NCBI RefSeq assembly: GCF_000234805.1
Contig: NC_016645.1
Coordinates: forward strand, 2,022,391 to 2,086,390
Source: Pyrobaculum ferrireducens
Lineage (GTDB): Archaea; Thermoproteota; Thermoprotei; Thermoproteales; Thermoproteaceae
Reading direction: 5' to 3'
Length of the DNA: 64,000 nucleotides
The notes under the pieces were generated by a model, which saw only the letters and a program-made list of their open reading frames with translations, searched no databases and had not been told where the DNA came from. Shown piece after piece: positions 4,065 through 19,296 of this stretch. Each line of letters starts with the position of its first letter. The first letter of the stretch is position 1. A program made the translations under genes and the position numbers.

Positions 4065-5948
4065 ATGTCTCTTTCCCCAGAGGACTTGGCTAAGCTTGTC
4101 CTCGTCTCTAGTCCAGACGTCGGCGGCGGCCGGGTTCTCTTCACGGTGACGAGGGTAAGTCTAGAGCTGGATAGGTACGAGTCTTCTATCTGGGTCTGCG
4201 AGGGGGGCTTCTGCAGGTCTGTCTTGCCGGGGCCGTTCGACTTGGCGGCTAAGGCATCTCCAGACGGGGTGCGTGTCGCCTTCCTCTCCCGGAGGGGGTT
4301 TGGGGAAAAGGAGAGGGGCGTCGCGCTGTGGGTCTCGGAGTGGGGTGGGGAGCCTAGGCAGTTGGCGAAGTTTCTGGGGGTTCTAGACTTCGCGTGGGGG
4401 CCCGACGGCGGCGCCTTGGCCGTGGTGGCGTATGAGGGCGCTCTTGAAAGCGACGTTAAGCATGTGGAGAGGTTGCCTGTGTGGATAAATGACTTTGGCT
4501 TCGCATACAACGTCGCCAGCCATCTCTACATCGTGGATGCCTTCAGCGGCGCCGTGGAGAGGCTGACTGAGGGGGACGTGAGGGTGTTGAGGGCTGGGTG
4601 GAGCCCCGACGGAAGGAGGATAGCGTACGTGGTGGCCCGTGACTGGAGGAGGCCTCATATACAAGACGTGGTTGTCCTCGACTTGAAGACAGGGGAGCAG
4701 GCGGTGGCGGCTTCGGGGTTCTCCTCTGTGTCTGAAGTTGCGTGGGGCCCCGACGGGAGGCGAATAGCATTCACAGGACATCTGAGGCCTAGGGGGCTGT
4801 CATCCCACTCCAGGGTGTGGGTAGTGGAGGAGGGTGGGGAGCCGGTGTGCGTCACCTGCGGCTTTAGGTATGGGGTTGGCAACGGGGTTAACAGCGACGC
4901 GAGGGGGCCTAGCTACGCGAGGTCTCTCTACTGGGCTGGGGACTCCGTGCTGTTCCAGGCCACTGTCGGGGGGACAGTTGGGGTTTTCCGCGCAGAGCTC
5001 AGCGGCGAGGTGTCCCCGGTCCTCACGCCTAGGGGGGTTGTGGACGAGTTCGCGCCGCTGGGAGGCAGCGTTGTATACACCTACATGGAAGCGGACAGGC
5101 CTAAGGAGCTGTACTACTGGGACGGATCCGAGGCCCGTAGGTTAACCCGCTTTAACGATTTCGTTTTGGAGAGGTGGCGCCTCAGAAAGCCCAGTAGGTT
5201 TGTGGTCAAGGCGAGCGATGGGGAGGAGGTGGAGGGGTGGGTGCTGTTGCCGGATGGCCCCGGCCCGCATAAGTGGGTGTTGTACATACATGGAGGGCCC
5301 AAGACGGCATACGGGGAGGGTTTTATGTTCGAGTTTCACCTACTGGCCTCGCGGGGGTACGCCGTGGTCTTTTCAAACCCCAGGGGGAGTGACGGCTACA
5401 GCGAAGAGTTTGCAGACATTAGGTGTAGATACGGCGAGAGAGATTTCCAGGACTTGATGGAGGTGGTGGAGCACGTGGTTAGGAACTACCCTCTTGATCC
5501 AAATAGGTCGGCGGTGGCTGGCGGGTCTTACGGCGGCTTTATGACCAACTGGATAATTACCCACGTGGATAAGTTCAGAGCCGCGGTGACCCAGCGCTCT
5601 ATCTGCGACTGGGTGTCTATGTACGGCACCACCGACATCGGGTGGTACTTCGTGGAGGATCAGTTGTGCTGTACCCCGTGGAGAAGCCGCGAGCTCTGTA
5701 TAAAGAAGAGCCCGCTGTATCTAGCGGATAGGGTCAAGACGCCGACTTTGATTATCCACTCCATAGAGGACTACAGAACGTGGCTTGACCAGGGGATTCT
5801 CTTCTTCACGGCGCTTAAGCTACACGGAGTGGATGCGAGGCTGGTCCTCTTCCCCGAGGAGAGCCACGAGTTGACCCGGAAGGGCAAGCCTAGGCACCGT
5901 GTGGAAAACTTTAAGGAGATTCTAAACTGGCTGGATAGATATGTATAA
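4065..5948 (+). CDS. S9-family prolyl oligopeptidase / acylaminoacyl peptidase
   Basis: Serine peptidase of 627 residues with a beta-propeller followed by an alpha/beta-hydrolase domain. Repeated WGPDG/WSPDG blade motifs fill roughly residues 100-260. The hydrolase part (from about residue 370) has the nucleophile elbow GGSYGG with Ser488, then Asp569 (HSIEDYRTW) and His601 (EESHEL). YIHGGP forms the oxyanion region. Family members release N-acylated or proline-containing residues from short peptides in the cytoplasm; no signal peptide is seen. A TATA-like box (TTTTAATA, about 4037-4044) gives a leaderless start. The stop overlaps gatD by 8 nt, so the two are probably co-transcribed. Which S9 subgroup it belongs to is uncertain. 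Confidence 0.92.
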   Translation: MSLSPEDLAKLVLVSSPDVGGGRVLFTVTRVSLELDRYESSIWVCEGGFCRSVLPGPFDLAAKASPDGVRVAFLSRRGFGEKERGVALWVSEWGGEPRQLAKFLGVLDFAWGPDGGALAVVAYEGALESDVKHVERLPVWINDFGFAYNVASHLYIVDAFSGAVERLTEGDVRVLRAGWSPDGRRIAYVVARDWRRPHIQDVVVLDLKTGEQAVAASGFSSVSEVAWGPDGRRIAFTGHLRPRGLSSHSRVWVVEEGGEPVCVTCGFRYGVGNGVNSDARGPSYARSLYWAGDSVLFQATVGGTVGVFRAELSGEVSPVLTPRGVVDEFAPLGGSVVYTYMEADRPKELYYWDGSEARRLTRFNDFVLERWRLRKPSRFVVKASDGEEVEGWVLLPDGPGPHKWVLYIHGGPKTAYGEGFMFEFHLLASRGYAVVFSNPRGSDGYSEEFADIRCRYGERDFQDLMEVVEHVVRNYPLDPNRSAVAGGSYGGFMTNWIITHVDKFRAAVTQRSICDWVSMYGTTDIGWYFVEDQLCCTPWRSRELCIKKSPLYLADRVKTPTLIIHSIEDYRTWLDQGILFFTALKLHGVDARLVLFPEESHELTRKGKPRHRVENFKEILNWLDRYV

Positions 5949-15283: not shown

Positions 15284-17269
15284 GTGATTGTACTTGAGAT
15301 AAACGTAGAAAGCGGTGAGGTGAGGAGGCGGGAGTTGGAGTCCACAGGCCCGCTGGACCTGGCGCTCGCCATACACAGAGAACGCGAGACGTGGCGCCTA
15401 GATCCCCTGGCGCCGGAGGCTCCGGTGGTCTTCGGCATGGGGCCCTTCGTCGGCGGGAGGCTACACGGAGTGCACAGATTGATATTTGTCTTCAAAAGCC
15501 CCCAGACCAAGACGCTACACGTATCCGCCCTCGGAGGGGCGGCTTACAAAGCCATGGGAATGGGGGCCCACGCGGTTGCCATAGTGGGGAGGGCCCCGAG
15601 GCCCACAGCCCTCCTGATCGCAGGCGGCGAGGTGAAGTTCGCCGAGGCGGAGCCGGGGGATGCATATGAAGTGGCCAAAAAGCTCTACGCCGCCCACAGA
15701 GAATTTTTCGTAGAAAACGACGCGAGGGTACTGGCGGTGGGCCCCGCGGCTTTCACCACGTACAACGGCGCCGTGGTCTCCATAGATATAGACGCGAAAA
15801 GGGGAGAGTTTAGGCTAGGCGCCGAGGACTTCGCCGCTAGAGGAGGCCCGGGCACCGCCCTGGCCCAGGGGCACAACGTCGTTGCTGTCGCCGTGGGGGG
15901 CTTGAAAAAGCCTCTCTACCAAAAGGTCGCAGACGTCGAAGCAATAAACCAGATATTCAAGACGAAAATGGGCAAGCCCTACCTAGAGGTGCTCAACGAA
16001 AAGACTGTGAAGTACAGGTACGACCCCAAGATGGGGACGGGGGGCACCTTCGGGGTAAACTACCCGCACTACCGCGACCTGCTACCCCTCTTCGGCTACA
16101 AATCCATCTACATGACCAAGGAGGAGAGGGTAAAGCACGCAGATCTGGTGCTGGAGCTCTTCTGGAAGCCCTTCCAGGTTGAGGTGTTTGAAAAGGCGAG
16201 GAGCTGGTACAATTGCGGAGAGCCCTGCCCCGTGGTTTGTAAAAAAGTGTGGCGGGGCAAGAAGGTGGACTACGAGTCCTTCCACGCCGTGGGGCCTTTC
16301 ATAGGCAACTACATATTCCAGGAGGCGGTGCCGCTGGTGGACAAAATCGACCGCCTAGGCCTAGACGCCATAGAGACAGGCCACCTAGTGGCGTGGCTCT
16401 TCGACGCTGTGCACGCCGGCCTGCTGAAGCCGGAGGAGGTGGGGCTGAGCGACGTGCCGGCCTTCGACCCCGCCGCCTTCAAGCCTGTGGAGGACTCTAG
16501 AAAAAACGCAAGGCTTGCAGGCGAGCTGATAGAGGGCTTTGTGAACAACTCAACCGAGGTCCTCACCCTCGTGGCTAGATACGGCATTAGAAAAGCCGCG
16601 CGGGAGCTGGAGAGGCGCTACCCCGACAGAGTGAGGGCCGCCGGTCATAGATTTAGAGACCTCGCCGTATACGCCGCGTACGGCACAGAGGGGTACATGA
16701 CGCCGAACTTCTACTGGGCCCCCGGCTTGATAGGACCCATGTACATACAGGGGCGTTACTGGACAAACTACAACCCCACCTTCATGCCGCCTGAAGACTT
16801 CGCCAAGTCATCCTACGAACGCGCCGTCGCAGAGGCCTACATAGACAACGCAGGTATCTGCAGGTTCCACAGAGGCTGGGCCGAGCCGGTGCTCAAGGAG
16901 CTCTACTCCCTAGCCGGCTTAAAACCCCCCACCCCCCAGCTCTACCGCGACATAGCCTACTACGCCAAGCTAGCCGGCGCGGAGCCGATGCCTTGGGAGA
17001 GCAAAAGAGCCAGAGACCCGGTGCTCAAGGAGCTCTACTCCCTAGCCGGCTTAAAACCCCCCACCCCCCAGCTCTACCGCGACATAGCCTACTACGCCAA
17101 GCTAGCCGGCGCGGAGCCGATGCCTTGGGAGAGCAAAAGAGCCAGAGACCTAGTCTCCACCCTCGCCCGCGAACTCGGCGCAAAAGAGTGGAAATTCGAA
17201 GACTACGACGACTACTACGAGTGGTGGGTTAGGTACAAAGAAGCCCTAGACAAACTGATATTCAGCTAG
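15284..17269 (+). CDS. AOR-family tungsten oxidoreductase, GAPOR-like, with internal tandem duplication
   Basis: 661-residue member of the aldehyde:ferredoxin oxidoreductase family, closest in layout to glyceraldehyde-3-phosphate:ferredoxin oxidoreductase, which replaces GAPDH/PGK in glycolysis of Pyrobaculum relatives. Cofactor and cluster features: C311-x3-C315-x3-C319 (CGEPCPVVC) and a fourth Cys526 (NAGICRFHRG). Residues 535-578 (PVLKELYSLAGLKPP...) are repeated without any change as 579-622, from an exact 132-bp tandem repeat; one copy removed leaves 617 residues. GTG 15284 follows a TATA-like box (AAAAAATTATT). GAPOR rather than another AOR class is inferred from organism and overall look. 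Activity with the duplication is uncertain. Confidence 0.85.
   Translation: MIVLEINVESGEVRRRELESTGPLDLALAIHRERETWRLDPLAPEAPVVFGMGPFVGGRLHGVHRLIFVFKSPQTKTLHVSALGGAAYKAMGMGAHAVAIVGRAPRPTALLIAGGEVKFAEAEPGDAYEVAKKLYAAHREFFVENDARVLAVGPAAFTTYNGAVVSIDIDAKRGEFRLGAEDFAARGGPGTALAQGHNVVAVAVGGLKKPLYQKVADVEAINQIFKTKMGKPYLEVLNEKTVKYRYDPKMGTGGTFGVNYPHYRDLLPLFGYKSIYMTKEERVKHADLVLELFWKPFQVEVFEKARSWYNCGEPCPVVCKKVWRGKKVDYESFHAVGPFIGNYIFQEAVPLVDKIDRLGLDAIETGHLVAWLFDAVHAGLLKPEEVGLSDVPAFDPAAFKPVEDSRKNARLAGELIEGFVNNSTEVLTLVARYGIRKAARELERRYPDRVRAAGHRFRDLAVYAAYGTEGYMTPNFYWAPGLIGPMYIQGRYWTNYNPTFMPPEDFAKSSYERAVAEAYIDNAGICRFHRGWAEPVLKELYSLAGLKPPTPQLYRDIAYYAKLAGAEPMPWESKRARDPVLKELYSLAGLKPPTPQLYRDIAYYAKLAGAEPMPWESKRARDLVSTLARELGAKEWKFEDYDDYYEWWVRYKEALDKLIFS
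16886..17149 (+). repeat. Perfect 132-bp tandem duplication inside the GAPOR-like gene
   Basis: Copy 1 is 16886-17017 and copy 2 is 17018-17149. I compared them base by base and found no difference. The length is 44 codons, so the frame is kept. It starts right after codons for the region following the fourth cluster-binding Cys. Complete identity means either a very recent duplication or an assembly error. Confidence 0.95.
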
Positions 17270-17327: not shown

Positions 17328-17684
17328 CTAGTGATGCCTCGGCTCGTGTGCCAGCTCGGCTGGAAACTCCTTCAGCAATCCTCTCTGGAATTTTTCAAGA
17401 ACCTCACGCAGAGTGGCCCCCTCAGCTAGGTATATGCGTACGCCTCTGTTTCTAAAGACGTGGTATGCCGGTCTCCCAATCTCTCTAGTAATGACGACGT
17501 CGGGGCCCAGGCTGAGTATCTCCTCCCACCTGTGTCCCCTCCCTCTTATAACCTCCCCGTTGCTGAAAATCCTCACCTGTCCCCCCTCAACAACCGCGAA
17601 GTAAGGCGCATGTCCAAACTCGTCGGAGACTGGGGAGTCCCAGCCCCTGTTTTCCTCAACCGGCACCAGTATACGCATGTCCAC
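17328..17684 (-). CDS. NifX/dinitrogenase-cofactor-family protein
   Basis: 118 residues of the dinitrogenase iron-molybdenum cofactor biosynthesis fold (NifX/NafY/C-terminal NifB type): MRILVPVEENRGWDSPVSDEFGHAPYF at the start, GPDVVITREIGRPAYHVF in the middle, LAEGATLREVLEKF near the end. Members bind metal clusters or cofactors. The C-terminus is His-rich (HEPRHH). Nitrogenase is not expected here, so handling of a Fe-S or tungsten/molybdenum cofactor is plausible. It lies convergent to the tungsten-type oxidoreductase. Start could be ATG 17684 or 17678. Confidence 0.8.
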   Translation of the reverse strand: MDMRILVPVEENRGWDSPVSDEFGHAPYFAVVEGGQVRIFSNGEVIRGRGHRWEEILSLGPDVVITREIGRPAYHVFRNRGVRIYLAEGATLREVLEKFQRGLLKEFPAELAHEPRHH

Positions 17685-18761: not shown

Positions 18762-19296
18762 ATGACTATGGGGATGGTGGAAGTTAGGTTTCATGGGCGG
18801 GGCGGCCAGGGGGATGGTCACTGCGGCGCAGGTCCTCGCCACCGCGGCGATTCTAGAAGGCAAATATGCACAAGCCTTCCCGGAGTTCGGCCCCGAGCGC
18901 AGAGGCGCCCCCGTCAAGTCCTACCTACGGATCTCGGACAGGCCTATATACATCAGAGAGCCGGTGCTCCACCCAGACGTAATAGTGGTGGCCGACCAGT
19001 CGCTATTCGGCGCAGAGAACCCCCTAGAAGGCGCCAAGGACACCTCCATACTTGTGGTAAACGGCGTCTACAAAGCTCCAATAAAGACCTACTACGTAGA
19101 CGCGACTACCCTAGCCATCAAGGTTTTGGGCAGACCCATAGTAAACACCGCCCTAATCGGGGCTGTGGTGAAGGCCACGGGAGTCGTGTCGCTAGGAACT
19201 GTAGCCGAGGCTTTGAAGAAGTACTTCACCGGGAGGCTGTACGACCTCAATGTAAAACTTGTAGAAATGGCCTACCAAGAAACTGTGGGGCTATGA
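18762..19296 (+). pseudogene. porG: 2-oxoacid:ferredoxin oxidoreductase gamma subunit, frameshifted near the 5' end
   Basis: The first gene of a porGDAB operon. The opening codons (MTMGMVEVRFHGRGGQG) are in one frame. After a run of five G at 18809-18813 the gamma-subunit sequence continues one frame over as MVTAAQVLATAAILEGKYAQ to the stop at 19296. Deleting one G restores the family hallmark FHGRGGQGMVTAA. The remainder (FPEFGPERRGAPV, NTALIGAVVKA) is well preserved, about 178 residues in total, so it is either a sequencing error or a very fresh mutation. A TATA-like box (GGTTAAATAATGG) precedes it. Downstream subunits are intact. Confidence 0.85.

Follow-up and report, generated by a model that had tools for sequence, protein, structure and literature searches.

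An exact 132-bp in-frame tandem duplication in a GAPOR-like gene of Pyrobaculum ferrireducens 1860: a recent mutation or an assembly slip

According to the passages of PMC4022640 that cite Waite et al. 2001 and 2003, spontaneous tandem duplications arise within the pneumococcal capsule genes cap3A, cap8E, and tts. As described there, a short stretch inside an open reading frame is duplicated exactly, in particular strains or clones, and the change is revertible in principle. A metabolic gene of the archaeon Pyrobaculum ferrireducens 1860 contains a repeat of this kind. However, phase variation with reversion was reported for the capsule genes, while the archaeal repeat is known from one deposited in-frame sequence.

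The archaeal protein itself has two described counterparts. Archaeal glyceraldehyde-3-phosphate:ferredoxin oxidoreductase (GAPOR; NCBIfam NF040818), of the AOR/WOR family, shares with it the AFOR domains at the N and C termini, the cysteines for the cluster, and the AOR fold. But the 1860 gene and all its Pyrobaculum orthologues score far below the cut-off for that family, and the 1860 copy has 44 extra residues. The second counterpart is the aldehyde:ferredoxin oxidoreductase (AOR) of Pyrococcus furiosus (PDB 1AOR). It is the best structural match for models of both the one-copy and the two-copy protein, and its catalytic Glu313 aligns with E331 of the 1860 protein. However, it has no repeat, and sequence similarity to it is detectable only over the N-terminal two thirds.

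The window that we analyzed is 64,000 nucleotides of the 1860 chromosome (NC_016645.1, positions 2,022,391 to 2,086,390 of the forward strand). One of the three aldehyde dehydrogenases encoded in this single-contig genome of 2,467,972 bp aligns over residues 1–491 with residues 1–491 of PDB 4H73, at 1100 bits; 4H73 is AlDHPyr1147 of Pyrobaculum sp. 1860 (PMC5121451), so the genome belongs to 1860 or to an extremely close strain. Coordinates below are within the window unless they are given as genome positions. The relevant features are:

15284–17269, + strand: GAPOR-like AOR-family gene, 661 codons (from Pfam, NCBIfam, and the lengths of relatives)
16214–16240, + strand: codons for C311, C315, and C319 (CxxxCxxxC), presumed [4Fe-4S] ligands, invariant in 18 aligned sequences
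16859–16861, + strand: codon for C526 (in DNAGIC), presumed fourth [4Fe-4S] ligand, invariant
16886–17017, + strand: repeat copy 1, residues 535–578, 132/132 bases shared with copy 2
17018–17149, + strand: repeat copy 2, residues 579–622, 132/132 bases shared with copy 1

The encoded protein matches both Pfam domains of the AOR family, AFOR_N with 114.8 bits (cut-off 29.8) and AFOR_C with 51.4 bits (cut-off 27). Its score against GAPOR_Arch (NF040818) is 470.7 bits, short of the 1300 bits required for an equivalog, and in 11 Pyrobaculum genomes no protein reaches this threshold. Because the score falls short, as it does in every Pyrobaculum genome scored, we place the enzyme in the AOR family and describe it, and its gene, as GAPOR-like. 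Its substrate and its metal are predicted from the family. Tungsten is the default metal for the AOR family. When produced in E. coli, the M. maripaludis GAPOR was reported to carry molybdenum (PMC12096430). The 1860 protein has the four cysteines expected of the AOR/WOR family (C311, C315, C319, and C526), which are presumed to bind the cluster, and no homologue that spans this part of the protein lacks an equivalent of C526. The spacing of the first three is CxxxCxxxC, versus CxxCxxxC in AOR. E331 is invariant, in keeping with the second-shell glutamate that is conserved in the GAPOR clade (PMC12096430).

Direct comparison of the two units (16886–17017 and 17018–17149) found no mismatch, and 132 identical bases cannot be explained by chance. 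TRF calls the repeat at 16886–17150, with a period of 132 and 100% matches. When the flanks are compared, the microhomology at the junction amounts to 1 bp, namely the additional matching base at 17150. Both units are in frame within the open reading frame, and 44 residues are added. The repeat starts at residue 535, which is 9 residues past C526, and the invariant RFHRGWAE lies in between. Both the form and the position given in the original prediction are thus confirmed: the 132-bp tandem duplication is exact, keeps the frame, and closely follows the fourth cluster cysteine. Inspection by eye, without a comparison to shuffled sequences, found no convincing hairpins at the end points of the repeat.

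Close full-length relatives of the gene have 616–622 codons, versus 661 in P. ferrireducens 1860. The doubled segment accounts for 88 residues in the 1860 gene, versus 43–49 residues in 44 distinct homologues with coverage of this region, drawn from the order and from a sample of the phylum. No homologue in that set has a segment of over 49 residues, so no established duplicated form was found there. All other Pyrobaculum orthologues have one copy, and a 100-bp probe that spans the junction matches without interruption only the genome of P. ferrireducens 1860. The comparison with related strains that had been suggested along with the original prediction therefore returned a single copy for every relative examined, and among all the genomes sampled, the doubled form is confined to that of 1860, in keeping with one of the possibilities originally named.

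The most informative relative is the sister strain 3827-6, which has one copy. The two genes differ at 4.7% of sites (87/1854), and the proteins are 97% identical. Both 1860 copies differ from 3827-6 at the identical four positions, so both derive from one sequence of the 1860 lineage. If the duplication were as old as the split from 3827-6, then about 6.2 differences between the copies would be expected in 132 bp, and none is observed. Because there are no differences in 132 bp at a divergence of 4.7%, the duplication is estimated to be younger than roughly half the age of the split (95% upper bound), which is a weak bound. A "very young" duplication, as had been suggested, is compatible with this, but the wording is stronger than the data allow. 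The codon differences between 1860 and 3827-6 comprise 64 synonymous and 19 non-synonymous changes. We also considered relaxed selection on the 1860 branch, and rejected it: when the changes were polarized with outgroups, there was no excess of replacements. The substitution pattern indicates that the gene was under constraint, which applies to the history of the lineage and not to the time since the duplication.

We propose, with only slightly more confidence than for an even bet, that a single spontaneous in-frame 132-bp tandem duplication occurred in the 1860 chromosome after the split from 3827-6. Adjacent near-identical units in one strain, with a single copy in relatives, are the sequence pattern of a spontaneous tandem duplication within an open reading frame. 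It would probably have arisen by a replication or repair error, with next to no homology at the junction (1 bp). In the model of the one-copy protein from 3827-6 (mean pLDDT of 87.7), a helix (527–543) leaves the cysteine loop and is followed by a loop (544–551), another helix (552–563), and a third helix from 574. The doubled C-terminal segment would correspond to the end of one helix, the loop, the second helix, and the start of the third.

When a tandem duplication is exact, there is no fixed place for the 44 surplus residues, which can be set at any offset along the unit. On our proposal, the neighbors in the native fold would be kept on both sides (GWAE-PVLKELY upstream and SKRARD-LVSTL downstream), so the surplus could bulge at the loop LK^PPTP. 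With the bulge at 544–551, copy 1 would supply the cysteine-proximal helix and copy 2 the last helices. A loop between two C-terminal helices would be the easiest place for the surplus. We would expect the enzyme to still fold, although it might be less stable, and the repeat to be prone to collapse to a single copy. The effect of the duplication is probably neutral or mildly harmful. Pyrobaculum and the more distant homologues differ by about 5 residues in the length of the loop that corresponds to 544–551. Tolerance of the insert is plausible, because the surplus can loop out anywhere and the unit holds this naturally length-variable loop. So the original prediction that the enzyme would be remarkable if active seems too strong; it would not be especially remarkable.

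We also modeled the protein with and without the insert, as had been suggested at the outset. The predicted structure of the two-copy protein retains the AOR fold, and PDB 1AOR is its top match (the E-values for the two models are 2.3e-21 and 2.0e-21). Confidence is low only around copy 1 and in two short stretches, with pLDDT below 50 across residues 536–577, and this value is biased: the alignment put copy 2 in the native place and left copy 1 without homologues. We considered using the model to choose which copy occupies the native place. We rejected this, since with that bias, the low confidence at 536–577 decides nothing.

Alternatively, contig ends that overlapped by 132 bp may have been joined without being merged, or a gap may have been closed twice, and the cell would have an ordinary enzyme of 617 residues. 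We consider this a serious competitor, at somewhat less than an even chance. The perfect identity, the 1 bp of homology at the junction, and the in-frame length, for which the chance is 1 in 3, would fit an unmerged overlap of contigs equally well, and the doubled form is in one genome only. Furthermore, the deposited 1860 sequence probably contains some errors. A porG-like gene (for the gamma subunit of 2-oxoacid:ferredoxin oxidoreductase; 18775–19296), about 1.7 kb downstream of the GAPOR-like gene, has one extra base in a G run near 18813 as compared to 3827-6. The extra base breaks the frame and, judging from the sequence, is probably a sequencing error. An AOR paralogue elsewhere in the 1860 genome (near genome position 240,940) is apparently frameshifted as well, being split into two frames at a G-rich stretch. 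The 3827-6 orthologue of this paralogue has a different one-base gap, and the paralogue may be decaying in both strains. However, homopolymer errors differ in kind from the duplication of a segment, and a repeat length that is divisible by three also argues against a fault. Finally, no other exact tandem repeat with a unit of 30–1500 bp was found in the approximately 1.58 Mb that we sampled of the 2.468-Mb genome. So the assembly does not create such repeats systematically, and we rejected systematic misassembly. (The only other tandem repeat in the sampled part is an imperfect one of 57 bp, with 89% identity, at genome position 1,284,495.) Since the repeat is exact and in frame, with a single copy elsewhere and a gene that appears otherwise intact, we place a real mutation slightly ahead of an assembly fault.

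The other explanations that we considered are far less probable. An older duplication could be common to both strains, with the copies homogenized by gene conversion and, in 3827-6, reduced to one when the short reads were assembled. Each of the 2 x 100 bp reads used for 3827-6 (PMC9872711) is too short to span a 132-bp unit. However, all the more distant complete genomes have one copy, and with the same four differences in both 1860 copies, conversion would be needed as well as collapse, so we give this scenario very little weight. That the doubled helical segment altered the stability of the enzyme or its binding to a partner, and was favored by selection, is hardly more credible. The preserved reading frame and the absence of decay in the gene speak for this scenario, but the doubled form is absent from every homologue, the sequence has not changed since the duplication, and the two-copy model has pLDDT below 50 over 536–577 (albeit with the alignment bias). 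Most speculatively, 1860 might make an active enzyme of 661 residues while the repeat collapses and re-forms often, giving mixed populations with two forms of the enzyme. This strikes us as very improbable; if true, a hyperthermophilic archaeon would have a switch based on duplication.

Whether the repeat is a small mutation of recent date or a slip in assembly, the explanation is ordinary, and no new system is revealed. If the duplication is real, then it offers a natural test of how a hyperthermophile's metal-cofactor enzyme copes with a tandem insertion of 44 residues beside the cluster-binding loop. If it arose in assembly, then the protein sequence deposited for this gene is incorrect.

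We noticed other irregularities among the relatives of this gene. A change of frame at a G run (residues 186–193; near 5555–5579 of the WP30 locus) interrupts the GAPOR-like gene of Pyrobaculum WP30. In another genome of the same order, the GAPOR-like gene has seven in-frame stops, and it is apparently a pseudogene or poorly assembled. In 1860 itself, directly downstream of the GAPOR-like gene and on the opposite strand (17328–17684, − strand), there is a small protein which, by eye, resembles the dinitrogenase iron-molybdenum cofactor family.
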